Shown here: positions 35,187 through 54,642 of the stretch, one piece after another
Numbering within the stretch: position 1 is the first letter of the stretch
Layout of the letters: every line of letters begins with the position of its first letter
DNA from: Roseicyclus mahoneyensis
Lineage (GTDB): Bacteria > Pseudomonadota > Alphaproteobacteria > Rhodobacterales > Rhodobacteraceae
Assembly (NCBI RefSeq): GCF_003148775.1
Contig: NZ_QGGW01000001.1
Span: 248,001-312,000, forward strand
Direction of reading: 5' to 3'
Length of the DNA stretch: 64,000 bases
The notes under the pieces: model-generated
What the model saw: only the letters and a program-made list of their open reading frames with translations
Database searches by the model: none
What the model was told of the DNA's origin: nothing
Made by a program: the position numbers and the translations under genes

Positions 35187-38075
<2,889 letters not shown>

Positions 38076-38110: not shown

Positions 38111-38142
38111 GCCGGGATTTGCATATTTGGGGAAAGATGAAG
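38111..38142 (+). repeat. Intergenic repeat element, copy 2
   Basis: GCCGGGATTTGCATATTTGG (38111-38130) followed by GGAAAGATGAAG ends 20 bases before the patatin ATG. It resembles the element at 15392-15424 in order and position: a GC block, then ATATTT, then a purine tail just upstream of the ribosome-binding site of the next gene. Confidence 0.5.
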
Positions 38143-38162
38143 GTAGGGGCGGGGAGAGGTTC

Positions 38163-39050
38163 ATGAGCCGGTCACCGAAACTGGGGCTCGCGCTGGGATC
38201 GGGCGGCGCGCGCGGCTGGGCGCATCTGGGCGTCTTGTCGGTGCTGGACGAGATGGGCCTGAAGCCCGACATCATCGCGGGCTGTTCGATGGGCGCGCTT
38301 GTGGGCGCGGCCGAGGCGGGCGGGGTCAGGGCCGAGCTGGAGGCGTGGGCGCGTGATCTGACGCAGGCGCGATTTCTCGGGCTGGTCGATCTGCGGCTGT
38401 CGTCCGGCGGGCTGGTGGCGGGGCGCGAGATCGCGTCGGTTCTGGGGGACTGGGGGCTGGACTGCGAGATCGGGTCGCTGGCTGTGCCCTTCACGGCAGT
38501 CGCCACCCATCTGGAGACGGGCCGCGAGGTCTGGCTGGACGAGGGGCCGCTCTTGCCGGCCGTGCGCGCCTCGCTGTCGATACCGGGTCTGTTCGCGCCG
38601 CAGCACCTCAAGGGGCGCTGGCTGGTCGATGGCGGTTTGACCAACCCCGTGCCGATTTCCGTGGCGCGGGCCAAGGGTGCCGACGTGATCTTCGCGGTCA
38701 ACCCCAACGCCAAGCCTTCGGGGCGGGTCTGGGTGCCCGAACCCGCTGCGGCCAGTCTCTGGACTCGGTTGGCCGCCAGCCTGCCCGGCGCGCTGAAGCC
38801 CGAGGTGTTGGACGATGTCGTGCGCCCGCAAGGCGGTGACGTGGTGGCGGCCGCGATCGACATGCTGACCGAATACCTGCGCCGCACGCGCGCCGCGGCC
38901 GACCCGCCCGACGTCATGATCGACATCGACCTGTCGGATTTTTCCACCATGGCCTTTTTCGAGGCCAAGACCGCCATCGAAGCTGGTCGCAAAGCCGCCG
39001 AGGATGCGCGGCCCCGGATCGAGGCCGCGCTGGAGGCCGCCGGCGCCTAG
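38163..39050 (+). CDS. Patatin-like phospholipase
   Basis: Serine lipid hydrolase of about 295 residues of the RssA/patatin type. The oxyanion loop GSGGARGWAHLG is at 12-23, nucleophile Ser42 in GCSMG, and the catalytic dyad Asp156 in VDGGLTNP. These make a complete Ser-Asp active site, so activity on lysophospholipids or acyl esters is likely. No signal peptide is visible. The ATG at 38163 has GGGGAGAGG upstream. The stop shares a CTAG with the stop of the convergent universal stress gene. Confidence 0.9.
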   Translation: MSRSPKLGLALGSGGARGWAHLGVLSVLDEMGLKPDIIAGCSMGALVGAAEAGGVRAELEAWARDLTQARFLGLVDLRLSSGGLVAGREIASVLGDWGLDCEIGSLAVPFTAVATHLETGREVWLDEGPLLPAVRASLSIPGLFAPQHLKGRWLVDGGLTNPVPISVARAKGADVIFAVNPNAKPSGRVWVPEPAAASLWTRLAASLPGALKPEVLDDVVRPQGGDVVAAAIDMLTEYLRRTRAAADPPDVMIDIDLSDFSTMAFFEAKTAIEAGRKAAEDARPRIEAALEAAGA

Positions 39051-39874
39051 TGCGACAGAAGAACCGGCAGCGGCGCGTCCTTCATCACGTCGCGGGTGAC
39101 GCCGCCGAACAGGTCCTCCATCGTGCGGCTGTGGCCATAGGCCCCCATCACCAGAAGGCCCGCGCCCATCTCTGTGCAGGCCGCAAGGATCGTGCGCGAG
39201 ACGCCGCCCCGGTCAGCGGTCCGGGCGACGTGATCGGCGCGGATGCCGTGGCGCTGCAGAAGGGCGACCACGTCTTGTGGCTGCGGCAGGCCGCGGTTGA
39301 TCTCGCCCACGCTCAGGACAGTCACGCTTTCCTTGGTTTCCAAGATGTGCATCGCGTCGCCAAGGGCGCGGGCGGCGGCGCGGCTGCCGTCCCAGGCGAC
39401 CACGGCATGCTCATTGATCGCGTCACGGTCATAGCCGTGCTGAACCAAGATCACAGGGCGGCCGCTGTTGATCGCGACATCCTCGGGCGCCTCGCCGAAA
39501 TGCTCACGGCCGGGTTCGGTGGCGCGACGGCCCATCACGAGGATGTCGTGGCTGCGCGCCTGTTCGGCGATGGAAAAGCCGCGCCGCATCTGCAGGTCGA
39601 GAAAGCTTGCGTCGATCCCCGGACCATTGGCGGCCACAACGGTCTCGAAGTTCGCGCGGATTTCGGCCACGGCGTCGATGTCGCGGCTGCGGATGATCTT
39701 GAGCAGATCGTCCGACAGGACGCGGCTGTATTCGCGTTCGAGGAATGCGGGCCCATGCGAGACCACACCGGTCAGATGCGCGCCGTATTTGCGCGCCATC
39801 TGCACGGCGAGGCGCAGGCCCCCCGAACTGGTCGCATCGCCGGAATAGGCGACGAGGATGCTCTTGATGGCCAT
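39047..39874 (-). CDS. Universal stress protein, tandem UspA domains
   Basis: Protein of 275 residues with two UspA domains. The first starts MAIKSILVAYSGDATSSGG; the second carries the nucleotide-type motif VMGAYGHSRTMEDLFGGVTR near the C-terminus. The USP family binds ATP or works as a signalling chaperone under stress; the target is unknown. AGAGGAAA upstream of the ATG at 39874 is a good ribosome-binding site. Its stop overlaps that of the patatin gene by three bases. Confidence 0.85.
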   Translation of the reverse strand: MAIKSILVAYSGDATSSGGLRLAVQMARKYGAHLTGVVSHGPAFLEREYSRVLSDDLLKIIRSRDIDAVAEIRANFETVVAANGPGIDASFLDLQMRRGFSIAEQARSHDILVMGRRATEPGREHFGEAPEDVAINSGRPVILVQHGYDRDAINEHAVVAWDGSRAAARALGDAMHILETKESVTVLSVGEINRGLPQPQDVVALLQRHGIRADHVARTADRGGVSRTILAACTEMGAGLLVMGAYGHSRTMEDLFGGVTRDVMKDAPLPVLLSH

Positions 39875-39914
39875 GGATCTTTTCCTCTCGATCTGGCTTG
39901 GGGTGTGGCGCGCT

Positions 39915-40509
39915 TCAGGTGGTGTGCACCGACGGATGGAATACCTCGTCGGGGATGACGGGGCGCGCCGCAAGATGCTGTTTGATGGAATAGCGGCAAA
40001 TCGCGGCGATCTCGGCTCGGTTGGCGGCAAAGCCGTCGCTCCAGCAATCCGGCCCCATGGCGGCGATCCTCCGTTCCATCGACGCGCCTATCGACCGCAG
40101 GGTCATGCGGTTGGCCGATCCCAGCCAGATGTCGCGCAAGCGCTCGACGGCGATGGCCTTGGCAGTCGAGACCCCGTTGCAGAGCCCGCGCCAGCCCCGG
40201 TTGGACCCTGATGGGGCTTTGGCGGATCGCCACGACATGCATGATCGGGAAACCCCCGATGCGGCGGAATGCGCGCGACAAGAAGACCGGGATGGCGGTG
40301 CAGGGCGTCGTGACTGGGGATATTCGCAAGGTGTAGGTCGAGAGCGACATTTCCGTGGCGTCGAACCGCGCCTCTTGGGCGGCGATGGGAAAGAGCTTGC
40401 CGGGGCGCAGGATGGTTGCCGCGATCACGACGTCGGGGATGGTCACTGTGCCGTCATCAAGCGTCAGGGCGCGATCAGGGTCCCGGGTGGCAGGCGTCGG
40501 GCGGGTCAT
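39915..40509 (-). pseudogene. Remnant of a 4,5-dihydroxyphthalate decarboxylase-like gene
   Basis: The start is intact (ATG 40509 with AAGGA upstream), and the first 75 or so residues match the family: FDATEMSLSTYTLRIS and TAIPVFLSRAFRR. About 150 central residues are missing. The 3' part continues in another frame with AKAIAVERLRD, DCWSDGFAANRAEIAAICRY and HLAARPVIPDEVF, which match the family C-terminus, and stops at 39917. Complete members are about 330 residues, so one internal deletion plus one frameshift near 40195 has destroyed the gene. Intact members decarboxylate dihydroxylated aromatic dicarboxylates. It sits 10 bases downstream of a GntR regulator on the same strand and next to a catabolic island. 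Confidence 0.75.
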
Positions 40510-40519
40510 GGTCGGTCCT

Positions 40520-41254
40520 TCAAGGCGCGGCGGAGCGGCGGGCCGCGGCACGGGGTGGGGTTGGCACCTGTGCCTCTGCCGACAGGTCCGACAGGGCGGC
40601 GGCGGTGCGGGCAAAATGGTGGGTGATCAGGTCGCAGGCGCGGTCGGCGTCGCGGGCCAGCACGGCCTTTGCGATGGCGGCGTGTTCCGCGCCAAGGTCC
40701 CGCGTGCCGATCTTCTGGTAGACCGAGGCGCGGCGGTAGCGTTCGCACAGGTCATGCAGCTGTGCGCGCACCCGGAGCAGCCATCGCGACCCGCAGGCCG
40801 AGACGATGGCGTCGTGAAAGGCGGCGTTGGCGTTTTCCCAGCGGTCCGTGACGGGTCCCGCGGCCGCCGCGAGCGCGGCATCTTCCTTTTGCATGATGTA
40901 GCTGGCGGCGACGACGCGCGCCTCCCATGCATCATCGCCGCGTACGATCGACAGGCGGATGGCCTCGGTCTCGATGGCGGTGCGTGCGGTGTTGAGGTCG
41001 TCGAATTCGATCGGGTCGAGGCCCGCCACGGCAAAGCCGCGGTTGTCCTCGACCATCACCAGCCCGTCCTGCCCGAGTTTTTGCAACGCCTCGCGCAGGG
41101 GCGTGGGGCCAACACCGTAAAGCGTCGTCAGCATGGCGATGCGCAGCCGTTCGCCAGGTCGGCGCTGTCCGGTGATGATGTCATGGCGCAAGGCGCGGTA
41201 GGCGGCCTGCGCCAGAGTTTCGCCTTCGGCGGGATCAATCTCGGTTCTGGTCAT
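40520..41254 (-). CDS. GntR-family regulator, FadR/FCD type
   Basis: DNA-binding regulator of about 244 residues. The winged helix-turn-helix (LRHDIITGQRRPGERL to GPTPLREALQKLGQDGLVMV) is followed by an all-helical FCD domain with the metal/ligand residues of the family (Asp in TARTAIETEA-type helix, His in NAAFHDAIV, Asp/His in GAEHAAIAKAV). Such proteins bind carboxylic acids and lose affinity for DNA. The start at 41254 has GGAG upstream. It is divergent from the first FAH gene, and an AT-rich palindrome lies between them. The downstream gene on its strand is the broken decarboxylase. Probable local regulator of the catabolic island. Confidence 0.85.
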   Translation of the reverse strand: MTRTEIDPAEGETLAQAAYRALRHDIITGQRRPGERLRIAMLTTLYGVGPTPLREALQKLGQDGLVMVEDNRGFAVAGLDPIEFDDLNTARTAIETEAIRLSIVRGDDAWEARVVAASYIMQKEDAALAAAAGPVTDRWENANAAFHDAIVSACGSRWLLRVRAQLHDLCERYRRASVYQKIGTRDLGAEHAAIAKAVLARDADRACDLITHHFARTAAALSDLSAEAQVPTPPRAAARRSAAP

Positions 41255-41319
41255 GCCGCGCTCCGGCTCTTGGTCTTTTCGCTTGCATTTGACAGGCTGT
41301 TTCATATTTGATTTCATAC

Positions 41320-41331
41320 ATTATCGATAAT
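41320..41331. promoter_or_regulatory. Palindromic operator candidate ATTATCGATAAT
   Basis: A perfect 12-base palindrome lies in the divergent region between the GntR gene and the first FAH gene. The extended form TTATCGATAATTA recurs with two changes (TTGTCGATAATTT) at 43108 before the second FAH gene. It is a good candidate binding site for the adjacent GntR protein. Confidence 0.5.
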
Positions 41332-41339
41332 TAACGGAG

Positions 41340-42218
41340 ATGTCGACGTTGAAGATCATCAGTTTCGTAACCGCAGACGGGCCTGCGGCAGGGTTTCTGG
41401 ACGGCAGCGATGCCGTCGTCTGTGTCGAGGGGGCGGCCGCGCGTTCAGCGGTTCTTGACGTGATCGCCTCCGGGCCCGAGGCGCTGTCGCGCTGGCGGGA
41501 CGGGGCGTTGCGGCGGGTGCCGCTGTCGCAGGTTCGTTTGTTGTCACCCATTCCCGAACCTTGCCGCGACATCTTTTGCATCGGCAAGAATTACCATGCG
41601 CACGCAGCCGAATTCCACTCCAGCGGGTTCGATTCCTCGGCGAAAGAGGCTGTTCCGTCGCATCCCGTGGTCTTCACCAAGCCCACGACCAGTGTCTGCG
41701 GGCCGGGCGATGTGGTGCGCGCCTCGCTCGATCCGACGCAGAGCGTGGATTACGAGGGCGAGTTGGGCGTGGTGATCGGCACGCGCTGTTTCGGGGTAAA
41801 GGCGGCGGACGCCTTTGACCATGTGTTCGGCTATGTCATCGTGAACGATGTCACGTCGCGCGAATTGCAAAGGCGCCACAACCAGTGGGTCATCGGCAAG
41901 GGGATCGACACGTTTTGCCCGATGGGTCCATGGATCGCGACAGCCGACGAGGTTTCCGATGTGACCGCGCTGGAGCTGGTGACCGAGATCAACGGCGAGG
42001 TGCGGCAGCACGCGCAGGTCGCGGACCTGATCTTTGACATTCCGACCCTGATCGAGACGATGTCGGCCACAATGACGCTGCTTCCGGGCGACATCATCGC
42101 CACCGGCACGCCGGTCGGCGTCGGCATCGGGTTCAAGCCGCCGCGCTACCTGGGGCCGGGCGACATGATGCGGGTGTCGATCACAGGGCTCGGCGTGCTC
42201 GAGAACCCGGTGGGGTGA
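41340..42218 (+). CDS. Fumarylacetoacetate hydrolase-family enzyme 1
   Basis: Metal-dependent hydrolase of 292 residues of the FAH superfamily, which cleaves carbon-carbon bonds in, or decarboxylates, 2-oxo/acylpyruvate-type ring-cleavage products. Visible marks: CIGKNYHAHAAEF, the metal ligands in VDYEGELGVVIG, VNDVTSRELQ, and PGDIIATGTPVGVG. The N-terminal 75 residues form the extra domain found in longer members. ATG 41340 directly follows GGAG, which is too close; a TTG at 41349, nine bases from GGAG, could be the real start (MKIISF). First gene of the catabolic island, probably regulated by the divergent GntR. Confidence 0.85.
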   Translation: MSTLKIISFVTADGPAAGFLDGSDAVVCVEGAAARSAVLDVIASGPEALSRWRDGALRRVPLSQVRLLSPIPEPCRDIFCIGKNYHAHAAEFHSSGFDSSAKEAVPSHPVVFTKPTTSVCGPGDVVRASLDPTQSVDYEGELGVVIGTRCFGVKAADAFDHVFGYVIVNDVTSRELQRRHNQWVIGKGIDTFCPMGPWIATADEVSDVTALELVTEINGEVRQHAQVADLIFDIPTLIETMSATMTLLPGDIIATGTPVGVGIGFKPPRYLGPGDMMRVSITGLGVLENPVG

Positions 42219-42244
42219 TGGCGGATGCGGGGTGTGGCCGGGCA

Positions 42245-42262
42245 GGGCGGGGCACCCCGCCC
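42245..42262 (+). other. Strong hairpin between FAH 1 and the TSUP permease
   Basis: GGGCGGGG-CA-CCCCGCCC is a perfect 8-base inverted repeat ending 17 bases before the permease ATG. No T-run follows, so it is more likely an mRNA stability or translation element than a terminator. Confidence 0.5.
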
Positions 42263-42279
42263 AAGGGCAAGGCGGCGCG

Positions 42280-43023
42280 ATGAGCGGCGGCATCCTTGCG
42301 CTCTTTGCCGCCACCGTTCTGGCGACCACGTTTCTGGCGGGTCTCTTCGGCATGGCGGGCGGCGTGCTGCTGATGGGGGCTTTGCTTTTTTTGGTGCCTG
42401 TCGCGGATGCGATGGTGCTGCACGGGATCACGATGATCGTGGCCAACGGTTGGCGCGGCGTGCTGTGGCGGCGCTACATCTTGTGGGATGTGCTGGCGCG
42501 CTATGTGCTGGGGCTGGTGCTGGCGGGCGCGCTGTTCACCGGCCTGATGATCGTGCCCGACGAACGGGTGATCTTGTTGATGCTTGGGGTGATGGCCTAT
42601 CTGGGCCTGATCTTGCCCGATCGGATGGTGCCGCAGGCAGATCGTCCCTTCGGGGCCGAGCTGTGCGGGTTCCTGTGCACCGGGTTTCAGCTTTTGTCGG
42701 GCGTGTCCGGCCCGATGTTCGACGTCTTTTTCGTGCGCACGACGCTGGACCGGCGCGCCGTGGTGGCGACGAAATCGGCCTGCCAGCTCATCACCCATAT
42801 CGCCAAGCTGGTCTATTTCGGCGTGCTGGTCGGGGGCGTTACGGCCATCAGCGGCGATCCGGTGGTGATCGGCGCGGCCATCCTCATGGCGATTGCCGGC
42901 ACCTCGCTGGCGCGCCCGCTGCTGGAGCGGATGAGCGACGCCGCCTTTCGCCGCTACACCAGCCGCATCCTGATGGGGGTCGGGGCCGTCTTTTTGCTGC
43001 GCGGTATCATCGGATTTTTCTAA
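42280..43023 (+). CDS. TSUP family permease (TauE/SafE)
   Basis: Membrane protein of about 247 residues with roughly eight helices. The paired motifs FLAGLFGMAGGVLLMGALL and FQLLSGVSGPMFDVFFV are the two halves of the TSUP (sulfite exporter TauE/SafE) fold. Members move small anions such as sulfite, sulfoacetate or carboxylates. The start at 42280 has AAGGCGG upstream; an in-frame ATG at 42232 is less likely. Its place between two FAH genes suggests it exports or imports an intermediate of the same pathway rather than serving the Sox system 16 kb away. Confidence 0.8.
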   Translation: MSGGILALFAATVLATTFLAGLFGMAGGVLLMGALLFLVPVADAMVLHGITMIVANGWRGVLWRRYILWDVLARYVLGLVLAGALFTGLMIVPDERVILLMLGVMAYLGLILPDRMVPQADRPFGAELCGFLCTGFQLLSGVSGPMFDVFFVRTTLDRRAVVATKSACQLITHIAKLVYFGVLVGGVTAISGDPVVIGAAILMAIAGTSLARPLLERMSDAAFRRYTSRILMGVGAVFLLRGIIGFF

Positions 43024-43107
43024 TATGTTGTTTTTTATTATAAAATCCCGCCGCCCCGCCCGTCTCGGCCGTGACATGACGGAAATTGATTTGACGTGGC
43101 GGCTGTT

Positions 43108-43120
43108 TTGTCGATAATTT
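43108..43120. promoter_or_regulatory. Second copy of the CGATAAT operator motif
   Basis: TTGTCGATAATTT matches the extended site at 41322 (TTATCGATAATTA) at 11 of 13 bases and lies 30 bases before the second FAH gene. The surrounding 128-base gap (43024-43151) is unusually AT-rich and holds no gene; it should contain the promoter of the FAH2-tct operon. Confidence 0.45.
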
Positions 43121-43151
43121 TGGGGAAAGACGAAATTTAGCGGGGGAATCG

Positions 43152-43976
43152 ATGAGGCTTGCGGCGTATCGTCAGAATGGAGCCACAAGGCTGGGGCTGC
43201 GCGACAGCGGAACGCTGCGAGACATCGGGCCCTTTCCCGCCTCGTCGCAGGGCTTTGAGCGGCTTGCGCAAGATGCCGCCACGGGCGCGATCACGCCCGG
43301 TGCCGTGGTCGAGGGTGCCGTCGATCCTGCCATGCCGGTCGTCCAAGATGCGCGCATCATCTGCATCGGGCTGAACTACGCTGAACATGCCCGTGAGGGT
43401 GGGCGCGAACCGCCGGCCTATCCGGGCATCTTCTTCCGGGTCGACACCTCGCTGGCGGCCGCGGGTGCCACCGTGTCCTCGGGAGGGATCAGCGACAAGC
43501 TCGATTACGAGGCCGAGCTGCTGGTCGTGATCGGCAAGGGCGGTCGTCACATCCCCGAGGATCAGGCGCTGGACCATGTGTTCGGCTACGGGGTGTTCAA
43601 CGACATCTCGGTGCGTGACTACCAGCAAAAGGGCGCGCAGTGGACACCGGGCAAGAATGTCGACGGCACCGGCATCGTCGGTGACGAGATCGTGACGCCC
43701 GAAGACCTGCCGCCGGGTGCCACCGGCCTTCAGGTCCGCGCAATCCTGAACGGTCAGGTGATGCAGGACGCCAATACCGACATCATGATCTTTCCCGTCG
43801 CCCGCGCCATCGCGATCATCAGCGATTTCATGACGCTGCGCCCGGGCGACCTGATCGCCACCGGCACGCCCTCGGGCGTGGGGTATGCCCGCACGCCGCC
43901 GGTCTGGATGCGTCCGGGCGACGAGATCGTGGTCGAGGTCGAACAGGTTGGCCGCGTGTCGGCAAGGATTGGATGA
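43152..43976 (+). CDS. Fumarylacetoacetate hydrolase-family enzyme 2
   Basis: FAH-superfamily enzyme of 274 residues. The core motifs are CIGLNYAEHAREGGREPP, the metal-binding KLDYEAELLVVIG, the lid segment SVRDYQQKGAQWTPGKNVD, and PGDLIATGTPSGVGYARTP. This form resembles enzymes acting on 2-hydroxy-diene-dioates and 2,4-diketo acids; the substrate is not known. It heads a compact run of genes (tctB starts five bases after its stop), so a role in breaking down the compound taken up by the Tct transporter is likely. Confidence 0.85.
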   Translation: MRLAAYRQNGATRLGLRDSGTLRDIGPFPASSQGFERLAQDAATGAITPGAVVEGAVDPAMPVVQDARIICIGLNYAEHAREGGREPPAYPGIFFRVDTSLAAAGATVSSGGISDKLDYEAELLVVIGKGGRHIPEDQALDHVFGYGVFNDISVRDYQQKGAQWTPGKNVDGTGIVGDEIVTPEDLPPGATGLQVRAILNGQVMQDANTDIMIFPVARAIAIISDFMTLRPGDLIATGTPSGVGYARTPPVWMRPGDEIVVEVEQVGRVSARIG

Positions 43977-43980
43977 CATC

Positions 43981-44472
43981 ATGGACAAGCGACCGGGCCT
44001 TCTTCCGGAACTGATCATCCCCATCGGGACGATCGCATTCGCCATCTACTATCTTTCGACGGTCTGGGACCTGCCGTTTCAGGCCAAGGTCGTGGGCATT
44101 TACGTCGCCTCGGCCATCGGCATACTGAGCTTTCTTCTGGCCATCCGCTTCGGGCGCGAGATCCTGACGGGCGCAAAAAGCCTCGGCTTTGCGGGGTTCT
44201 TTTCGGACCCTGTCTCGGAGGGACGGCGCTGGGGCGTTCTGGCGCTGTCGATCGGCTTCATCTTGCTGATGCCGGTGCTGGGCTTTGTGGTGACGATCTT
44301 CGCCTTCGTCTTCTCGACCGTGATCGTGATCGGGGGCGTGCAGCGCCTTAAGGCCGCGTTTTTCACGGCGCTGGGCATGTCGACGGTCGCCTTCCTCGTC
44401 TTCCTCGTGTTGGTGCAGGTCCGTTTCCCCACCAACATCATCGATCAAACCCTCAAGGGACTGTTCATCTGA
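43981..44472 (+). CDS. tctB: Tripartite tricarboxylate transporter, small membrane subunit TctB
   Basis: Small membrane protein of 163 residues with four helices (LIIPIGTIAFAIYYLSTVW, IYVASAIGILSFLLAI, VLALSIGFILLMPVLGFVV and the last pair before RFPTNIID). It fits the TctB/DUF1468 family in length and helix layout. It assists the large permease TctA, encoded next with a one-base gap. The ATG at 43981 lies just inside the operon after FAH 2. Confidence 0.85.
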   Translation: MDKRPGLLPELIIPIGTIAFAIYYLSTVWDLPFQAKVVGIYVASAIGILSFLLAIRFGREILTGAKSLGFAGFFSDPVSEGRRWGVLALSIGFILLMPVLGFVVTIFAFVFSTVIVIGGVQRLKAAFFTALGMSTVAFLVFLVLVQVRFPTNIIDQTLKGLFI

Positions 44473-44473
44473 C

Positions 44474-45985
44474 ATGGACCAGTTTTCCACAATCGTCGGG
44501 CTATTCGGATACTCGCTGAGCTACTGGTGGGTCATGATCCCCGCGGTCCTGCTGGGCAATCTCGTGGGCGCCATCCCGGGATTCAGCGCTGCCAATACGA
44601 TCATCATCTTGCTGCCGCTGACGCTGTCGGTGGATGTCGAGGTCGCGCTCATCTTCATGATGGCGCTCTATTCCGCTTCGCAGCTTGGCAACGGCATCCC
44701 CGCCATTCTGGTGAACATCCCCGGCACCGGCGGAGCGGCGGCGACCACGCTTGATGGCTACCCGATGGCGCAAAAAGGCGAGGGGCAGCGCGCGCTTGTC
44801 TATTGTTTCGTCGCCTCGATCTTCGGCGGGCTGATCGGCACGATGTTCGTGCTGGCGCTGCTGCCGGTGCTGTCTCAGGTCGGCAACTACCTGCATTCGG
44901 TCGAGATGGTGGTGATCATCCTGTTCGGTCTGACGCTGATCGCGGTGATCGCGGCCGCCGACATGATCAAGGGCCTGCTGGCCGGCATGCTGGGGCTGTT
45001 GATCGGCGCCATCGGCACCGATTTCATCTATTCCGAACCGCGCGCCACCTTCGGCCTGCTGGAACTTTACGACGGCATCCCGCTGGTGCCAGCGCTGATC
45101 GGTCTTTTCGCGATTTCCGAGGTTTTCGTGCTGATCGAACGGGGCCGCGTGCTCAAGGACGAGTACATGGATGTCGTGGTCAGCTCCAAACTGTCGGACG
45201 TCTGGGTATTGGTGAAGGAATCGCTCGGAAGCTGGTTCTTGATGACATGGACCGCGCTGATCGGTGTCATCATCGGCATCATCCCCGGGGCGGGCGCCTC
45301 CATCGCGTCTTTCGTGGCCTACCAGCAGGCGCGCACCTTCTCCAAGACGCCCGAACTGTTCGGCACCGGTGTGCCCGAAGGCGTGGCGGCCCCCGAATCC
45401 GCCAACAACGGCGTCACCTCGGGCACGCTGGTGCCCTTGATGGCGATCGGTGTTCCCGGCGGCAGCACGGCCGCGATCATGATGGTGGTCTTGCAGTATC
45501 ACGGCGTCACGCTCGGCCCGCGGCTGTTCATCGACAACCCTGAACTGGCCTATGGCATCTTTACCGCGGCCTTCATCACCTATCTCTTGATGATCCCGCT
45601 GATGTTCCCGATGGCGATGTACATGTCGCGCGTGACCACGGTGCCGGCCTTCTTCCTTGTGCCGATGATCCTGGCTTTCACGCTTCTGGGCGCCTTCGTG
45701 CCGCGCGGTTACATGTTCGACATGGGGCTGGCCATCGCCTTCGGGGTGCTGGGCTATCTGGCGCGCAAGACGGGCTACCATGTCACCGCGATCTTGATCG
45801 GCATCATCCTTGGCCCGTTGATGGAGCAATACCTGATGCGCGCGCTGCGCATCTCGCGCGGCGACGTCGGCATCCTGTTCAGCTCGAACCTCGGCAACAT
45901 CTTGTGGGTGTTCCTGATCATCACTTTGCTGCTGCCCGTCTACAAAAGCTGGCAGGCCCGCAAAAACCAAGGGGAGGCGGCCTGA
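44474..45985 (+). CDS. tctA: Tripartite tricarboxylate transporter, large permease TctA
   Basis: Permease of 503 residues with about 12 helices. Signature stretches are GNLVGAIPGFSAANTIIILL (conserved PG motif), ILVNIPGTGGAAATTLDGYP, GIIPGAGASIASFVAYQQ, and LMAIGVPGGSTAAIMM. TctA uses the proton or sodium gradient to import carboxylates delivered by TctC. Length is normal for the family. It sits between tctB and the propeller gene in a tight operon. Confidence 0.95.
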   Translation: MDQFSTIVGLFGYSLSYWWVMIPAVLLGNLVGAIPGFSAANTIIILLPLTLSVDVEVALIFMMALYSASQLGNGIPAILVNIPGTGGAAATTLDGYPMAQKGEGQRALVYCFVASIFGGLIGTMFVLALLPVLSQVGNYLHSVEMVVIILFGLTLIAVIAAADMIKGLLAGMLGLLIGAIGTDFIYSEPRATFGLLELYDGIPLVPALIGLFAISEVFVLIERGRVLKDEYMDVVVSSKLSDVWVLVKESLGSWFLMTWTALIGVIIGIIPGAGASIASFVAYQQARTFSKTPELFGTGVPEGVAAPESANNGVTSGTLVPLMAIGVPGGSTAAIMMVVLQYHGVTLGPRLFIDNPELAYGIFTAAFITYLLMIPLMFPMAMYMSRVTTVPAFFLVPMILAFTLLGAFVPRGYMFDMGLAIAFGVLGYLARKTGYHVTAILIGIILGPLMEQYLMRALRISRGDVGILFSSNLGNILWVFLIITLLLPVYKSWQARKNQGEAA

Positions 45986-45986
45986 C

Positions 45987-47258
45987 ATGGACGCGAACTT
46001 GTCCAAGAACTTCACACGGCTGGCGCGGCTCGACATTCCGGGCGGCGGGCAGGTCAGGGTCGAAGACGGCTATTGCTACATCGGTCACATGGATGCACCG
46101 AACGGCACCACCATCATCGACGTGTCCGACCCGCGCGATCCCAAGATCGTGGCAAAGGTCATGCTCGACGATCTGTGGTCGCACAGCCACAAGGTGCGCG
46201 TCTGTGGCGATCTGATGATCGTCAACCACGAGCAAAACAAGCGCCATTTCCACCGCAAGGGCGAAGGCTTGCTGGAATACGAGGCGCATATGCGCGCCCA
46301 TGAAGGGCGCGACCCCACCGATGCTGAGCTGGCCGCGTTCCTTGCCGTGACGGTGGCCGACATCCCGACGCTGCGCAAAAGTGCGGCGCGCGGCTATCAC
46401 GACGGCGGGTTCCGCATCTACGACATCAAGGACCGCGCCAACCCGCGCCTGTTGTGCCACCACAAGACGCATGGCTTCGGCGTGCACCGCTTCGACATCG
46501 ACGAAAACTATCTCTACATGTCGACAGAGATGCCGGGGTTCGTCGGCAACATCTTGATGGTCTACGAATACAGCGATCCGACCAACCCCACCAAGGTCGG
46601 CCGCTGGTGGATGCCCCAGCAGGAAAATTTCGACAATGCCCGCCCGACGTGGAAGGGCTACGCCAACCGCCTGCACCACACGCAGCGCGTCGGCAACGAG
46701 CTTTGGGCCTCGTGCTGGCACGCGGGCTTCAGCGTCATCGACGCGACAGATATTCGTGCGATGAAGACCATCACCAGCTTCGACTACCATCCGCCCAGCA
46801 AGCATCCGACCCATACGATCAAGCCCTTGCCGGGCCTGATCGGCGGGCGGCGCTATGCGGTCGCGGCCGACGAGGAGCATGCCCACAAGCAGGGGCAGCT
46901 GGCCGCGCATATGTGGGTCTTCGACGTCACCGACCTGTCGGACATCCGCTACACCTCGACCTTCCATGTCGGCGAGCTGGACACGCCCTATGCCGCCGGC
47001 AACGGCCGCTTCGGCTGCCACCAATATGCCGAGACGCTTTATGACACGACAGTTTTCGCGGCATGGTTCTCGGGCGGGCTGCGGGCCATCGACCTGTCGA
47101 AACCGTCCGATCCGACCGAGGTGGGCCATTTCATCCCCACCCCCACCGGCGGGCACCCCGTGCCGCAAAGCAATGACGTCTACGTCGATGATCGCGGGCT
47201 GGTCTATCTGCTCGACCGGCTCGAAGGTCTCGACATTCTCGAATTCCATCCGGGCTGA
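45987..47258 (+). CDS. LVIVD-type beta-propeller protein, histidine-rich
   Basis: Soluble protein of 423 residues built from repeats of the form (I/V)xDVSDPxxPxxV (for example TIIDVSDPRDPKIVAKV and VFDVTDLSDIRY), which mark LVIVD-repeat propellers. It is unusual for conserved-looking histidines spread over all blades: HSHKVR, NHEQNKRHFH, HHKTHGFGVHRFD, HHTQR, HPTHT, EEHAHK, RFGCHQY. This pattern recalls metal-binding propellers such as selenium-binding protein/methanethiol oxidase, so an enzyme role (lactonase or oxidase) is conceivable. There is no signal peptide. One base separates it from tctA and about 50 from tctC; it is clearly part of the operon. Function unknown. Confidence 0.7.
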   Translation: MDANLSKNFTRLARLDIPGGGQVRVEDGYCYIGHMDAPNGTTIIDVSDPRDPKIVAKVMLDDLWSHSHKVRVCGDLMIVNHEQNKRHFHRKGEGLLEYEAHMRAHEGRDPTDAELAAFLAVTVADIPTLRKSAARGYHDGGFRIYDIKDRANPRLLCHHKTHGFGVHRFDIDENYLYMSTEMPGFVGNILMVYEYSDPTNPTKVGRWWMPQQENFDNARPTWKGYANRLHHTQRVGNELWASCWHAGFSVIDATDIRAMKTITSFDYHPPSKHPTHTIKPLPGLIGGRRYAVAADEEHAHKQGQLAAHMWVFDVTDLSDIRYTSTFHVGELDTPYAAGNGRFGCHQYAETLYDTTVFAAWFSGGLRAIDLSKPSDPTEVGHFIPTPTGGHPVPQSNDVYVDDRGLVYLLDRLEGLDILEFHPG

Positions 47259-47306
47259 GGGGGCCCGGGCGGAAGGATGCAAAGCCATCACATCAGGGAG
47301 GATACC

Positions 47307-48320
47307 ATGACCAACAAACTTCACACCATCAGCCGCCGCGGGCTCTTGCGGACCGGTGCCGCCGTGGGCGCGGCAAGCCTGTTCACCCCCGCGATCTTGC
47401 GGGCGCAGGGCACATACCCGACCCGCAACATCAACGTGGTCATCGCCACGGGGCAGGGCGGCGGGGCGGAAACCACCGCGCGCGCCTTCACCAACGTGAT
47501 GCGCACCGATCTGGGCGTGGATTTCGAGTTCGAATTCCATCCCGGCGCAGGCGGGCAGGTGGGCTACGAGCTCTACAACAGCCGCCGCGACAAGGACGGC
47601 TACAACCTGCTCTTCAGCAACATGCACCCCGAGATCATCACCTACGCCACGCAGGAAACGAACTACAACCTGCCGGGCGACATCATCCATTTCGCCAAGA
47701 CCGGCGGCACGCCGATCGTGTGCTATGTCGGCGCCAACAGCCCGATCCAATCGATCGAACAACTGGTCGAGATGGGCCGTCAGAACACTGTGACGATCGC
47801 CTGCAGCCGCCTGCCGCACCCCGGCACCATCGGGATGCTGTCGCTGGCCGAGGCGACCGGGGCCGATTTCAACATGATCCCCTATGGCGGCGGCAACCCG
47901 ACCTCGATGGCGACGATCACGGGGGAAACCGACGCGGCTGTTCTGACGGCCGGCGTTGCGATCAGCCTTGGCGAACAGGTGCGCGTGCTGGGCACCTTCC
48001 GCTCGATGGAGGCGTTCAACGTCCAGATGGGCAACCCGCCCTTGGTCAACGACGTCTTCGGCACGTCCATCCCCGAACTGGAACTGGCGCAGGGCTGGGC
48101 GATGCATACCGAGGTCTGGGAAAACATGCCCGAGGTGCGCGAGCGGCTGGTCGGCTCGATCCGCGCCGCCTTCGACAACCCCGAACTGCGCGCGCAGCAC
48201 GAGGCGGTGAACTATCCCTTCGACGGCGTGGAATATGGCGATGAAACGGTCTGCGCGCAGATCGTGGCCGATACGACGGCGCTTGCGCGGCAGTTTGCGG
48301 ACCGCATCCGCGACAGCTGA
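47307..48320 (+). CDS. tctC: Tripartite tricarboxylate transporter substrate-binding protein TctC
   Basis: Periplasmic binding protein of 337 residues. The N-terminus SRRGLLRTGAAVGAASLF with cleavage near LRAQG looks like a twin-arginine export signal. The mature part has the family pattern YPTRNINVVIATGQGGGAETTAR and FHPGAGGQVGYELYNSRRDKDGYNLL. It captures a carboxylate for TctA/TctB. GGGAGGAT upstream of the ATG at 47307 is a strong ribosome-binding site, fitting the need for high expression. A stem-loop follows the stop. Confidence 0.9.
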   Translation: MTNKLHTISRRGLLRTGAAVGAASLFTPAILRAQGTYPTRNINVVIATGQGGGAETTARAFTNVMRTDLGVDFEFEFHPGAGGQVGYELYNSRRDKDGYNLLFSNMHPEIITYATQETNYNLPGDIIHFAKTGGTPIVCYVGANSPIQSIEQLVEMGRQNTVTIACSRLPHPGTIGMLSLAEATGADFNMIPYGGGNPTSMATITGETDAAVLTAGVAISLGEQVRVLGTFRSMEAFNVQMGNPPLVNDVFGTSIPELELAQGWAMHTEVWENMPEVRERLVGSIRAAFDNPELRAQHEAVNYPFDGVEYGDETVCAQIVADTTALARQFADRIRDS

Positions 48321-48332
48321 AGACATCTCAAG

Positions 48333-48358
48333 GCCCCCGGCGCCATCTTGCCGGGGGC
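48333..48358 (+). other. Stem-loop after tctC
   Basis: GCCCCCGGC (48333-48341) pairs perfectly with GCCGGGGGC (48350-48358) around GCCATCTT, between tctC and the second GntR gene. Without a T-run it may protect the tctC 3' end or attenuate read-through into the downstream genes. Confidence 0.55.
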
Positions 48359-48364
48359 ACGACC

Positions 48365-49113
48365 ATGGGGAAGGCCATGCCGAACGCGCCTCAATCGATG
48401 GGCATTTCCCTCGTGGAAACGATCCGCGGCGACATCCTGGCCGCGCGCCTGACGCCCGGAACGAAACTGACGGTGAAGATGCTGAGCGATATCTACGACT
48501 GCGGCGCCTCGCCCGTGCGCGAGGCGCTGAACCGTCTGACATCCGAAGGGCTGGTCGACCGCATCGACCGGCGCGGATTTTTCGTGTCCGGCATTTCGGC
48601 CGATGATCTGGCCGATATCCTTTTCAACCGATGCTTGCTGGAAGGCGAGGCGTTGCGTCGGTCCATCGCGCGAGGCGGGGCCGAGTGGGAGGAGGCTGTG
48701 CTGATCTCGCACTACCGGCTGAGCGTGCTGCCCCGCCAGATCGAGGAGGGTGCAGGCCCGCGCCCCAACCCGGTCTGGGAGGTGGCGCACAAGCGGTTCC
48801 ACATGGCGCTTTTGTCGGCTTGCGGGTCGCGCCTGCTGCTCGAGAGCTGTGAGCGGCTGCACGAGTTGAACAACCGCTACCGCCATTTCAGCCGCATCGC
48901 CGGGGGGCCGGTCCGTTCGATCGAGACGGAACACCGGCGGTTGTGCGACCTTGTTCTTGCGCGCCGCGCAGAGGATGCCGTGCAGGCCCTGACCGAGCAT
49001 TACCAGCGCACCGGAGACGCCGTCCTCAAGGCCCGGATCGAAACCCGGCCCGAAGCCCACGGCACTCCGGCGGAGCGTCCGCACTTCCCGCCAACAGATG
49101 GAGCAAACGCCCT

Positions 49114-49117
<4 letters not shown>
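48365..49117 (+). CDS. GntR-family regulator 2, FadR/FCD type
   Basis: Regulator of 250 residues. Its winged helix ([18 protein letters not shown] to [20 protein letters not shown]) and FCD domain ([24 protein letters not shown]) match the FadR/FCD group. The last 30 residues are a disordered tail. ATG 48365 was taken; ATG 48377 is also possible, and neither has a strong ribosome-binding site. Its stop overlaps the first aldo/keto reductase start by four bases (ATGA), so it is translated together with the downstream enzymes. This is the second regulator of the island and differs clearly from the one at 40520. Confidence 0.85.
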
Positions 49118-50087
<970 letters not shown>

Positions 50088-50091
<4 letters not shown>

Positions 50092-51089
50092 CCGGCGCGG
50101 GGCTGGCGCAGCGCAGGATCGGCGCGCAGGGGCTCACCGTCTCGAGCGTGGGATTGGGGTGTTCGGGCATGACGTCCGATTACGGGCTGCCGGACGACGT
50201 GGAATCCGTGGCGACGATCCATCGCGCCATCGAGTTGGGCGTGACGCTCTTCGACACGTCGGACGCCTATGGCGCGGGCCGCAACGAAGAGCTGATCGCA
50301 GGGGCCATCAAGGGGCGGCGCGACGGCATCGCGCTGGCGTCGAAATTCGGCAACATCCGGGGCCCCAACGGGGAACGCGGCGGCACCAACGGCCATCCCG
50401 ATTACGTGCCGCAAGCCTGCGAGGCGAGCCTCAAGCGCTTGGGCGTCGATGTGATCGACCTCTATTACGTCCACCGCATCGACCCCAATGTGCCGATCGA
50501 GGATACGGTCGGCGCCATGGCGCGCTTGGTCGAAGCAGGCAAGGTGCGGTATCTGGGCCTGTGCGAGGCCGGTCCGCAGACCATTCGCCGCGCCCATGCC
50601 ACCCATCCGCTGTCGGCCGTGCAGATGGAATATTCCCTCTGGACCCGTGACGCCGAGGCGGAAATCCTGCCCACGCTCAAGGAGTTGGGCATCGGCCTTG
50701 TACCTTACAGCCCGCTCGGGCGCGGCTTCCTGACCGGCGCGTTTTCCAGCCGTGACGACCTGATCTCAACCGACCGCCGCCATGCCCATCCCCGCTTTCA
50801 GGAGGGGAATTTCGAGGAAAACCTGCGCCTTCTCGCCCCGGTCGAGGCCATCGCCACCGCGCGCGGGTTGGCCAAGGGGCAGGTCGCTCTCGCCTGGCTT
50901 CTGGCGCAATGGGACGGCCTTGTGCCGATCCCCGGCACCAAGCGCCGCCGCTGGCTTGAGGAAAACATCGCGGCCGTCGATGTCACCCTGACCGCCGACG
51001 AGATCGCGCGTCTGTCCGACGCCTTTCCCCCCGGCGCGGCCTCGGGTCTGCGCTACCCGGAATTCCAGCTCAAGAAGATGGGCATCTGA
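50088..51089 (+). CDS. Aldo/keto reductase 2
   Basis: Paralogue of the preceding gene, 333 residues, with the same tetrad: Asp56 and Tyr61 ([11 protein letters not shown]), Lys86 (LASKFGN), His129 (YYVHRIDP), and [13 protein letters not shown]. The two share long identical segments (for example [12 protein letters not shown]), which points to tandem duplication. It starts with GTG inside the stop of reductase 1. Different starts and internal loops suggest different substrates or stereochemistry. Confidence 0.9.
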
Positions 51090-51127
51090 CGCCCGTCCCC
51101 CCATCCGACACGAAAGGACCCCCACCG

Positions 51128-52060
51128 ATGGTAACCCCAGTCATGCCCGAACAGACCTTTGCAGGCGTTGAGCATTGGACCAAAAAGGGCGATGTGACCC
51201 TGTTCCTGTGGCAAAAAAAGGTGCCGCAAGGCAACCCCAAGGGCACGGTGCTTTTCGTGCATGGCTCGTCCATGGCCTCGACCCCGACCTTCGACCTGCA
51301 TGTCGACGGGCGGCCCTATTCCTCGGCGATGGACTGGTTCGTGAGCCAGGGCTTCGACACCTGGTGCGTCGACATGGAGGGCTATGGCCGCTCCGACAAG
51401 GACCCGTCGGTCACCGCCAACATCAAGGCGGGCGGCGATGACCTGATCGCGGCGACCGATTACATCATGGCGCTGACCGGCGTGAAATCGTTCCTTGTCT
51501 ACGGGATTTCCTCGGGCGCGCTGCGCGCCGCCAATTTCGCCGAACGCAAGCCTGAACGGGTGGCGAAACTGGCGCTCGATGCGATGGTCTGGACCGGCGA
51601 GGGCAGTCCGACGCTGGAACAGCGCGCCAAGAACCTTGCGCGCTGGCAGACCGGCGAACGCCGCCCGATCGACCGCGAGTTCGTCTGGTCGATCTTCAAC
51701 CGCGACCATCCCGGCTGCGCCGACGCCAATGTGGTCGAAGCCTTTGCCGAGGCCATAGTGGCGCTCGACGACAGCGTGCCGACGGGCACCTATCTGGACA
51801 TGTGCGCGAACCTGCCGGTGACGAACCCCGAGAACCTGACCATGCCCACGCTGGTCATGCGCGGCGAGTTTGACGGGATTGCGGGGATCGACGACCTGCT
51901 GGCCTTCTACAAGGCGCTGCCGCACCCGGCCAAACAGTTTTCGGTCATGCAGGGTATCTCGCACGCGTCCTTGCAGCAGAAGAACTACATGATGGTCTAT
52001 CACATCTTGCAGTCCTTTTTCGAACAACCCGACCCGGTCTATACGGGCGACGGCGCCTGA
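51128..52060 (+). CDS. Alpha/beta hydrolase
   Basis: Hydrolase of 310 residues. The oxyanion region FVHGSSMAS is at 43-51, nucleophile Ser128 in GISSG, an acid residue probably in RGEFDGIAGI, and the histidine in GISHASL. These form a full catalytic triad. It may open a lactone or cleave an ester or a carbon-carbon bond of a ring-cleavage product, as several meta-cleavage hydrolases of this fold do. There is no signal peptide. It sits 38 bases after reductase 2 and 49 before FAH 3 in the same run of genes. Confidence 0.85.
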   Translation: MVTPVMPEQTFAGVEHWTKKGDVTLFLWQKKVPQGNPKGTVLFVHGSSMASTPTFDLHVDGRPYSSAMDWFVSQGFDTWCVDMEGYGRSDKDPSVTANIKAGGDDLIAATDYIMALTGVKSFLVYGISSGALRAANFAERKPERVAKLALDAMVWTGEGSPTLEQRAKNLARWQTGERRPIDREFVWSIFNRDHPGCADANVVEAFAEAIVALDDSVPTGTYLDMCANLPVTNPENLTMPTLVMRGEFDGIAGIDDLLAFYKALPHPAKQFSVMQGISHASLQQKNYMMVYHILQSFFEQPDPVYTGDGA

Positions 52061-52109
52061 TCGGGGCGGAGCTACAACCACAAACAAGCCTTAGAACTAG
52101 GAGACCTGA

Positions 52110-52793
52110 ATGTCAGATCTGGTGATCGCAGCGCCGGACACGGTGACCATCCCCGTTGCGGGGGGCGGCCTTTTTCCGGTGCGGCGCGTCTATTGCATCG
52201 GGCGCAACTACGCCGCCCATGCCGTCGAGATGGGCCATGACCCGGACAAGGAACCGCCCTTCTTCTTTCAGAAGAACCCCGACAACCTCGATGCGTCGGG
52301 CGAGTTTCCCTATCCGTCCCACACCTCGGATGTGCACCATGAGGCCGAGGTGGCGGTGATGCTGAAATCGGGCGGCACCAACATCCCCGTCGCGCGTGCG
52401 CTGGACCATGTCTTCGGCTACGCGCTGTCGCTCGACATGACGCGGCGCGATCTGCAGGGCGAGGCGAAAAAGATGGGCCGCCCGTGGGAGATCGGGAAAG
52501 CCTTTGAACGCTCCGCCCCCGTCGGGCCGATCCACCGCGTCGAGGAGGTGGGGCATCTGTCGGAAGGCAAGATGACCTTCACCGTCAACGGCGAGTTGCG
52601 GCAGGAGGGGGACCTGAACCAGATGATTTGGAAGGTTCCGGAAATGATCTCCTACCTCTCGGAGTATTTCGAGCTGAAGCCGGGCGACGTGATCTTGTCG
52701 GGCACGCCCGCGGGCGTGAACGCTGTCGTGACGGGCGACATCATGGTGCTGGAGGTCGAGGGTCTGGGCTCCATGACCGTCAAGGTCGTCTGA
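52110..52793 (+). CDS. Fumarylpyruvate hydrolase-like FAH enzyme 3
   Basis: Short FAH-superfamily enzyme of 227 residues, the size of fumarylpyruvate hydrolases of the gentisate pathway. Motifs: YCIGRNYAAHAVEMGHDP, PFFFQKNPDNL, the metal site DVHHEAEVAVMLKSGG, LDMTRRDLQ, and PGDVILSGTPAGVNAV. AGGAGA lies just upstream of the ATG. It closes the island and is followed by a strong hairpin. A gentisate-type or related ring-cleavage product is a plausible substrate, but no ring-cleaving dioxygenase is visible in the window. Confidence 0.85.
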   Translation: MSDLVIAAPDTVTIPVAGGGLFPVRRVYCIGRNYAAHAVEMGHDPDKEPPFFFQKNPDNLDASGEFPYPSHTSDVHHEAEVAVMLKSGGTNIPVARALDHVFGYALSLDMTRRDLQGEAKKMGRPWEIGKAFERSAPVGPIHRVEEVGHLSEGKMTFTVNGELRQEGDLNQMIWKVPEMISYLSEYFELKPGDVILSGTPAGVNAVVTGDIMVLEVEGLGSMTVKVV

Positions 52794-52803
52794 AAACACT
52801 GGC

Positions 52804-52834
52804 GCGCGCGGGCGAAACGACCCCGCCCGCGCGC
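52804..52834 (+). terminator. Hairpin ending the catabolic island
   Basis: GCGCGCGGGCG (52804-52814) pairs perfectly with CGCCCGCGCGC (52824-52834) around a nine-base loop, ten bases after the FAH 3 stop. The T-rich tail is weak (TTGTCC), so it is a probable but not classical terminator. Confidence 0.6.
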
Positions 52835-53412
52835 TTGTCCGGCAAACCGATCCCGCGATGGCGCGACCAGTCCCGACGCTACAACTAGTTTCCTGTGGCC
52901 CAAATGCGCCACAAATCTTGATATTGATGTCGCAAGGCGCAAATCTCCGATTCACTTGCGGGGGCCAATCAAGTATGGTCTGAGCATAGCCATGCCGCGC
53001 GGGACGTGTTTCGGGTGGCGGCGGCGCAGGTTTCGTCCTGTCGCGATGTGGTAACGAGAGTTGGGCCGTGTTGAGGCATTGACGATGGGCACAGAAACAG
53101 CGGACAAAATCGGGTTTCTTGCAGCTCTTTGCCCCGATACGGGGCCCGCGACTGGCTTGGTCGCGCGCAATGTGATCGCCTGCGACTGCAGTGTTGCGAC
53201 AGCCGGTTCCACCACGCCCTCCCTGACCTTGACGGGTGCAATCGTCGGGCGGTCGGTTCTTTCCTCAGTCCTTGCGGTCCAGACACGCCTCGGCATCGTG
53301 CGCGCTTTTGCGGCACAGGCCGTCGCGACTGCCGCCCTTTCCCCTTGCGTCGGGGTGGTGTCGTGCCGCCTTGATTGCGCGGCGCAAACCTGAAGCAAGA
53401 AAATTGGACGTC
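52835..53412. other. Stretch without a confident gene
   Basis: Open frames of about 100-150 codons exist on both strands (for example plus-strand 53085-53393 and minus-strand 52952-53398), but neither resembles a known protein or has a good ribosome-binding site. TGTGGC and GCCACA near 52900 can form a small hairpin. TTCACT (52951) and TATGGT (52974), 17 bases apart, are a weak promoter candidate on the plus strand. The stretch probably holds the promoter of the lipoprotein genes that follow, and perhaps a decayed gene. Confidence 0.35.
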
Positions 53413-54084
53413 ATGAAGATAGCTCTCCCCCTGATCCTCTGCGTCGGCTTTCTGTCCGCTTGCACGCCTTCGACCGTCTCTGCCCCGGTCGAGGCGACGT
53501 CGGCCAATTCTGCGCTGCACGGACCCGGGGCATCCGAGTTGCTGTCCGAGCGCGATGCGATGTATCGCGAGGTGTTCGAGCAGGCGCAATTGCAAGGCTT
53601 CCTTTCGGGCGCACTGCGCGGGTTGCTGTTGGGCGCCTTGATCGATGGCGAGCGCGGGGCAGTTTTCGGTATGGCGGCAGGTGCGGTTTTCGGGTCGCTC
53701 TATGCCACGACGGCGGCCGAGCAATTGCTCGAAGAGCGTGAAGAGTTTCTCAACCGGCAACAGATTATCGAGAATATTCTGGACGCCTCGCGCGGGGCGG
53801 CCGCGCGCAGTGCGGAAGATGCCGCGCTGGTCAGCCGCGCCGTCACTGAATTCACCAGTCTCGCGCCAACGGGCGAAAGCGCGGGCGAGGTTTTGGGCGA
53901 ACAGATCGGCACGCTGCGCCGTGCGGTGGAAATGCGCGCGGTGCTGATCGAGGAGCTATTGCACGAGGCGAGCCTGACGCCCGAGCAGCAGGCGGAGGTG
54001 CGTGCGCAGATCGACGCGCAGCGCGGGTCCTTGCGTGTCATTCGCGCGCAACAAGATGCATGGAGGGCACGCAGCGATGGTTGA
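53413..54084 (+). CDS. Lipoprotein with glycine-zipper segment
   Basis: Putative lipoprotein of 223 residues. The signal peptide ends in lipobox LSAC with lipid-carrying Cys17. A hydrophobic, glycine-spaced stretch (GALRGLLLGALIDG followed by GAVFGMAAGAVFGSLYA, about 65-100) looks like a glycine zipper able to enter or pore a membrane. The rest is helical, charged and coiled-coil-like (LLEEREEFLNRQQIIENIL to the C-terminus). The family is not recognised. The ATG at 53413 is set by the signal peptide. It overlaps the next lipoprotein gene by eight bases, so they form an operon. Confidence 0.65.
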   Translation: MKIALPLILCVGFLSACTPSTVSAPVEATSANSALHGPGASELLSERDAMYREVFEQAQLQGFLSGALRGLLLGALIDGERGAVFGMAAGAVFGSLYATTAAEQLLEEREEFLNRQQIIENILDASRGAAARSAEDAALVSRAVTEFTSLAPTGESAGEVLGEQIGTLRRAVEMRAVLIEELLHEASLTPEQQAEVRAQIDAQRGSLRVIRAQQDAWRARSDG

Positions 54085-54555: not shown

Positions 54556-54642
54556 CGCCGTGCCCCGGCCCCGGAGGCACCGGGCCCGAGAGGTCGATTG
54601 CAAAGGTTCACGAATGTTCTCGTCGAGAAAGTGGTATATGCC

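Follow-up and report, generated by a model that had tools for sequence, protein, structure and literature searches.

What acid is probably imported and broken down by a run of genes that places a Tct-type carboxylate transporter among three FAH-fold enzymes, two aldo/keto reductases (AKRs), an alpha/beta hydrolase and a histidine-rich beta-propeller of the LVIVD-repeat type? The run lies in a 64,000-nucleotide stretch of the 4.03-Mb genome of Roseicyclus mahoneyensis (G000:C1:248001-312000; hereafter the window), where 12 genes follow one another on the plus strand from 41340 to 52793 in the order FAH1, TSUP, FAH2, TctB, TctA, propeller, TctC, GntR, AKR1, AKR2, alpha/beta hydrolase and FAH3. 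Two joints between successive genes are 4-bp overlaps and the rest are spaced 1-128 bp, and the run is flanked by a divergent GntR gene and a broken dihydroxyphthalate-decarboxylase gene. A first-pass annotation, made from the sequence alone, had listed two FCD GntR regulators, three FAH enzymes, a TSUP permease, TctBAC, the propeller, the AKR pair, the hydrolase and a decayed gene in tight or overlapping order, and had proposed one pathway, possibly for an aromatic acid; every item is present, and the close packing is borne out.

The gene set is a real, conserved and probably laterally moving catabolic one, and it is most revealing in its propeller, a scaffold that may carry a metal enzyme. 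We propose that the genes form a catabolic operon, probably acquired by lateral transfer, for a small carboxylic acid of a hydroxylated, sugar-like or lactone-forming kind (the most likely classes), with the propeller as an early, cytoplasmic, metal-dependent hydrolase or lyase, and we give this reading a probability of about one half. We infer the order of steps, the metal, the cytoplasmic location and the substrate class as follows. TctC would bind the acid in the periplasm and TctAB would import it. The propeller, in which no signal peptide was seen, would then carry out an early hydrolytic or lyase step on the imported carboxylate, with a cluster of histidines and acids sitting in place of the two-metal centre of the phosphotriesterase of Sphingobium sp. 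TCM1 (Sb-PTE). The alpha/beta hydrolase would come next, breaking an ester, a lactone or a C-C bond; the two AKRs would reduce (or oxidise) an aldehyde or a ketone; and the 2-oxo or diketo acid so formed would be turned into central metabolites by the FAH enzymes, through cleavage, decarboxylation or tautomerisation. The FCD GntR proteins would regulate the pathway, and the TSUP permease may export an anion. The features, with their window coordinates, are:

39918-40497, minus strand: pseudogene of 4,5-dihydroxyphthalate-decarboxylase type, in two fragments with most of the middle absent
40520-41317, minus strand: FCD-type GntR regulator 1 (PF07729, PF00392), divergent from the putative operon
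41340-42218, plus strand: FAH1 (PF01557, 244 bits; nearest solved relative 8sky)
42232-43023, likely start 42280, plus strand: open reading frame (ORF) of a TSUP/TauE-family permease (PF01925, 50.5 bits)
43152-43976, plus strand: FAH2 (PF01557, 213 bits; nearest solved relative HpaG, 1gtt)
43981-44472, plus strand: TctB, the smaller membrane subunit of the Tct system (25.8 bits with PF07331, short of the 29.1 cut-off; accepted on size and place)
44474-45985, plus strand: TctA, large Tct membrane subunit (PF01970, 413 bits, over its cut-off)
45987-47258, plus strand: LVIVD-repeat beta-propeller, proposed metal enzyme (eight His invariant in 59 homologues)
47277-48320, plus strand: TctC, periplasmic binding protein (PF03401, 41.5 bits, over its cut-off)
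48365-49117, plus strand: FCD-type GntR regulator 2 (PF07729, PF00392), within the putative operon
49114-50091, plus strand: AKR1, aldo/keto reductase (PF00248; nearest solved relative perakine reductase)
50088-51089, plus strand: AKR2, aldo/keto reductase (PF00248; 58% identical to AKR1)
51128-52060, plus strand: alpha/beta hydrolase (presumed triad Ser128, Asp249 and His279, which does not vary among 37 sequences)
52110-52793, plus strand: FAH3, short FAH-fold enzyme (PF01557, 190 bits; best NCBIfam model PRK10691, under its cut-off)

Conservation of the gene set

The gene set recurs around the propeller in genomes beyond the Rhodobacteraceae, so that the neighbourhood on which the first-pass annotation had staked its proposal is indeed conserved. 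A scan of our genome collection confirmed 236 propeller loci, and the best 80 were retained without thinning for relatedness. Partner counts are taken over the 37 loci in which each flank of the propeller extends for 7 kb or more (the 43 of 80 that are short on one side were left out; the propellers of L109, L110 and L116 entered by tblastn), a neighbour being counted if it lies within 7 kb and scores at least 80 bits. TctA accompanies the propeller at 36 of these loci, TctC at 35, the hydrolase at 25, an FAH at 22 and an AKR at 21; rarer partners are TSUP and TctB (9 each) and GntR and the decarboxylase (6 each), the TctB count being low because TctB diverges fast. The propeller is the part of the set most tightly tied to the Tct transporter. 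None of 20 control stretches (15.3 kb each, chosen manually from four genomes, at round-number positions) has any query gene at 80 bits or more, and the clustering of the gene set exceeds chance. Among 385 genomes of the class, 19 have the propeller and 18 the hydrolase, with both present in 11 versus 0.89 expected.

A nine-gene run from FAH2 to the hydrolase is complete in four of the five closest loci (L039-L042) and is present up to the contig end in the fifth (L043). FAH1, TSUP, FAH3 and the decarboxylase look like optional modules, because their presence varies among the four closest long-flank loci, L039-L042. The genomes and metagenome-assembled genomes (MAGs) with propeller loci are labelled Alphaproteobacteria (including SAR116), Betaproteobacteria, Gammaproteobacteria, SAR324 and Desulfobulbaceae, and some of the partner families are also found in loci labelled Burkholderiales (L057), SAR324 (L082, AKR only) and Desulfobulbaceae (L103), mostly MAGs.

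Tct systems occur widely, and the ligand is known for only a minority of them. A propeller with invariant histidines and a tight Tct linkage provides a handle on one large group of them, and a single solved substrate would make many loci nameable together. No description of this gene set was found in the open-access literature (PubMed Central, PMC), subscription papers and preprints lying outside the search. Among Tct-linked catabolic loci, the Cupriavidus ohpT/ohpA genes (PMC8449657) and an alginate locus in Vibrio sp. C42 (PMC13390454) are similar in that a Tct system or a Tct-type binding protein is encoded next to enzymes that use its ligand; they differ in the enzymes, and the available excerpts of both papers mention no propeller.

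A block absent from a congeneric genome

The putative operon lies within a larger segment that a congeneric genome (G749) lacks:

38080-57118 (19,039 bp), no strand assigned: block present in the window and absent from G749, flanked by 34486-38079 and 57119-60345

Matches to the two flanks are separated by 133 bp in G749, versus 19,039 bp in the window. The earlier proposal of a single catabolic gene set equipped with a carboxylate importer is thus supported, for a set that is conserved as a neighbourhood and sits on this block. Gain and loss of the block cannot be told apart for certain from a single congeneric genome; gain is more likely, because few genomes of the family have a strong propeller match (17 of 394, the genome of the window among them) and the remaining 16 are at 48-55% identity.

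Comparison with Lutibaculum baratangense (Hyphomicrobiales) suggests lateral transfer of the nine-gene core. This genome has the run FAH2-TctB-TctA-propeller-TctC-GntR-AKR1-AKR2-hydrolase at 59-90% identity (TctB 59%, GntR 68%, FAH2 74% and the other six genes 82-90%), and UvrA, used as a yardstick, is 72% identical in Lutibaculum and 85-95% identical in the genomes of L039, L040 and L042. Transfer is suggested because seven of the nine core genes exceed the UvrA identity to a member of another order, and because the Lutibaculum propeller is closer (82%) than that of L042, a Rhodobacteraceae MAG (78%). FAH1 was also compared with plasmids, and every one of the 1,099 records is below 60% identity.

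The block also carries genes for a patatin-like phospholipase and for a universal stress protein (38109-39874). None of the eight ORFs scanned between 53 and 57 kb is over a Pfam cut-off, a gly-zipper-like match at 53236-54084 being under its own, and an 813-aa frame (54598-57039, plus strand) in the downstream part of the block (53236-57118) may encode a large uncharacterised protein. No tRNA was found in window positions 30000-64000. A promoter scan found one site versus 1.9 expected, and 18 terminator-like sites were found versus 8.8 expected, nearly all within genes.

The propeller as a candidate metal enzyme

The AlphaFold model of the propeller has a mean predicted local distance difference test score (pLDDT) of 92.8, and its top Foldseek match is Sb-PTE (5hrm), at E 3.9e-16 against 6.6e-8 for the next protein. 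The template-modelling (TM) score of 0.64 by query length indicates an Sb-PTE-like predicted fold. A profile search of PDB sequences also places this phosphotriesterase first, across short repeats only. Eight histidines (H34, H66, H68, H167, H230, H231, H276 and H345) and several acids, including D295, E296 and D397, are invariant in 59 propeller homologues. To our knowledge, a metal-enzyme propeller scaffold of this type is known only from the phosphotriesterase.

For residue comparison a 583-aa plasmid copy from S. xenophagum stood in for Sb-PTE; it was found through a 33-residue fragment that matches it at 100%. It has E201, H258, H389, E407 and H475, the putative metal ligands of Sb-PTE, at exactly those numbers. 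In two of three MAFFT modes with 24 sequences, E201, H389, E407 and H475 align with H68, H276, E296 and H345, and H258 falls one column off H167. The same four propeller residues are kept in four proteins of 29-31% identity from Erwinia, Rahnella, Agrobacterium and Caballeronia. The case for a metal enzyme thus rests on a predicted fold and on residue matches from alignment programs, which tend to pair His with His, and not on overall sequence.

Sb-PTE, the haloalkylphosphorus hydrolase of Sphingobium sp. TCM1 (5hrm, 5ioj), resembles the propeller in being a beta-propeller with LVIVD-like repeats. It differs in that the S. xenophagum copy is the longer protein, with no Tct gene in the 8 kb displayed around it, and phosphotriesterase activity is no obvious fit to the putative operon. 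A methanethiol-oxidase-like copper propeller was also considered, and was set aside as none appears among the 50 listed of 550 Foldseek matches (E <=0.001).

The main reason for regarding the propeller as an enzyme and not as a part of the transporter is an Alsobacter locus (L080), which has the propeller with FAH1, FAH3, AKRs, the hydrolase and ABC-transport genes and has no TctA match; because it keeps propeller and enzymes together in this way, the propeller appears to go with the enzymes. We tentatively suggest that the propeller may represent a new class of cytoplasmic metal-dependent beta-propeller enzyme acting on imported carboxylic acids, at the committing step of an undescribed and widespread Tct-linked pathway. 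If it is an enzyme, it would be a new catalytic family among proteins that at present go under the names 'hypothetical', 'LVIVD repeat' and even 'sigma-70 subunit'. A helical insert at about residues 86-135 gives weak profile matches to sigma factors, which may account for the last of these names; the propeller of an Ancylobacter polymorphus locus (L162) is annotated as RNA polymerase subunit sigma-70.

Substrate class, competing explanations and variant loci

The enzymes can be placed in families and no further. All three FAH proteins, at 33-37% pairwise identity, are far over the PF01557 cut-off of 23.9 bits, and the two AKRs score 261 and 239 bits with PF00248 against a cut-off of 24. The best curated equivalog scores of the FAHs are 198 of 500 bits (FAH1), 181 of 500 (FAH2) and 161 of 201 (FAH3), so that no substrate can be assigned to any of them. 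All three sequences contain NYxxHxxE, which we take to be the FAH motif of the catalytic His/Glu pair, and 8sky is presumably Bacillus YisK. HpaG/HpcE, YcgM, FAHD1 and L-2,4-diketo-3-deoxyrhamnonate hydrolase share the family and the motif, and no FAH of the window reaches the equivalog cut-off. The Foldseek matches listed for the alpha/beta hydrolase are generic esterases, lipases, thioesterases and C-C hydrolases at 13-20% identity, so its fold does not fix its reaction.

The transporter is no more specific. FAH, AKR and Tct families are also usual in sugar-acid and hydroxy-acid pathways. Tct ligands named in excerpts of one paper include citrate, aldarate, glucarate, terephthalate, 2-oxoadipate and alginate oligosaccharides (PMC13390454), a breadth that makes the transporter point to 'carboxylate' and no narrower. 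FAH1 and FAH2 score best among NCBIfam models with NF053535, a sugar-acid model for which the above 198 and 181 bits are far under the cut-off; with no dehydratase family among the cluster proteins, a non-phosphorylative L-rhamnonate-type pathway is not recognized. LVIVD proteins of about 30% identity from Erwinia, Rahnella and Agrobacterium adjoin genes for sugar ATP-binding cassette (ABC) transporters, a further pointer to a sugar or hydroxy acid. Neither these neighbours nor the FAH model is decisive.

The aromatic entry compound of the first-pass annotation is left without support: its pointer gene is a pseudogene here and has homologues within 7 kb of only 6 of the 37 long-flank propeller loci. 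An intact relative of 328 aa in L039, which matches 4,5-dihydroxyphthalate decarboxylase (PDB 9jp7) over its length at 264 bits, aligns through residues 5-87 with 40497-40249 (67%) and through residues 238-328 with 40190-39918 (64%), so the window copy, which lacks most of the middle, is broken and cannot supply the reaction. The small ORF at 39915-40238 (minus strand), which has no Pfam match of its own, is the end of this broken gene. As the earlier reading had it, no ring hydroxylase or ring-cleaving dioxygenase family is found among the cluster proteins scanned. Elsewhere in the genome, on other contigs, there are three matches to intradiol dioxygenases and one to Ring_hydroxyl_A; LigB has no match in the genome, glyoxalase-type extradiol enzymes not having been searched for. 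The tally of neighbour proteins at other loci (237, excluding labelled cluster members, proteins shorter than 140 or longer than 720 aa and proteins rejected by a filter on codon composition) includes two with LigB, which ten further candidates did not serve to identify; the families listed there are the 25 commonest of 164 and of 155, and other ring-cleaving families are not excluded. LigB genes suspected next to OsmC in L075 and L077 proved to be FGE-sulfatase-like and were rejected.

An aromatic-acid pathway with ring opening elsewhere or ahead of uptake, leaving ring-cleavage products to the FAHs, nevertheless has points in its favour, in that FAH1 and FAH2 match HpaG-type models and structures (under curated cut-offs), the genome has the intradiol enzymes, and a Tct-type terephthalate-binding protein matches TctC weakly. 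Full-length dihydroxyphthalate-decarboxylase-like ORFs are present in six related loci (L039, L040, L042, L115, L116 and L117), with a seventh, L110, recognized by tblastn. Set against the broken gene, its sparse distribution, the lack of a ring-attacking family among the scanned cluster proteins and the scant LigB matches, these leave the aromatic pathway rather unlikely. Perhaps the propeller itself is a C-C or ring-cleaving metalloenzyme, which would account for three FAHs without a known ring cleaver; we regard this boldest form as very improbable. Many propellers are binding scaffolds, Foldseek lists many such after 5hrm, and the protein could be a cytoplasmic scaffold, sensor or metal-binding partner of the transporter, with the FAHs, AKRs and hydrolase making up the pathway. 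Propeller and TctA are the closest pair, and the distant LVIVD proteins also adjoin transporter genes; but the invariant histidines and acids, the enzymes kept with the propeller at L080 and a top fold match that is a metal hydrolase, ahead of the next protein by eight orders of magnitude, make a non-enzymatic role improbable. It is also doubtful, and in our view quite improbable, that two or more separate modules stand side by side, namely the nine-gene core and unrelated FAH1/TSUP, FAH3 and decarboxylase genes for other substrates. The latter genes do come and go in L039-L042 around a constant nine-gene block, and the two FCD regulators are only 36% identical; yet FAH1-type, FAH3-type and TSUP genes lie near the propeller in distant loci too (L068, L073, L080, L085 and L098).

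Several observations weigh against the operon with an early propeller metal enzyme that we prefer. The likeness to the phosphotriesterase is local (67 columns in hhalign, 16% identity in Foldseek), the metal ligands compared for Sb-PTE are putative ones, and an Sb-PTE-like site requires E201 to be replaced by His. The third MAFFT mode retains only H68 and H276 of the five presumed ligand positions, H68 is replaced by Leu in one distant homologue (d157), and in the alignment H68, H276, E296 and H345 are all missing from a Tritonibacter protein that was retrieved with the Sb-PTE fragment. Neither FAH nor AKR reaches an equivalog or subfamily cut-off. In the class, 8 of the 19 genomes that match the propeller family lack a hydrolase match and 7 of 18 show the reverse, and two loci (L117 and L159) have OsmC and a two-subunit molybdenum hydroxylase with no AKR or hydrolase match. 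The gene content of these two loci suggests that downstream chemistry differs between loci; AKR and molybdenum hydroxylase could both serve aldehyde removal.

Variant loci add other genes. The OsmC family is present at 13 loci and a pair of 2Fe-2S and molybdopterin hydroxylase genes at five; one genome of the family (G154) has the propeller, OsmC, the hydroxylase pair, an AMP-binding enzyme and a ketopantoate-reductase-like gene. A coenzyme A ester lyase is added on Skermanella plasmids, and on Ancylobacter polymorphus plasmid pB (L162, 10794-18208) TctC-TctB-TctA-propeller is followed by acetolactate decarboxylase and synthase. One stretch of L150 (G113:C16:63000-78882) has TctB, TctA, OsmC, an asparaginase-like gene and an AMP-binding-enzyme homologue, together with a molybdenum hydroxylase, two tandem hydrolase homologues, malate synthase and an AKR, the propellers being on contig C17; later steps there may run around glyoxylate. 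Two assemblies each have two distinct propeller loci (L043 and L090 in an uncultured Jannaschia; L102 and L115 in a Paracoccaceae MAG). Lumazine-synthase-family genes lie close to the propeller in Pelagibius-type loci (L048:5114-5818 and L065:4773-5654), Pfam DMRL_synthase being found in 3 of 118 neighbour proteins. A gene for a small ModA-like solute-binding protein lies by the propeller in L044, L045, L050, L094 and L103, often on the opposite strand, and SBP_bac_11 is found in 4 of 118 and 6 of 119 neighbour proteins.

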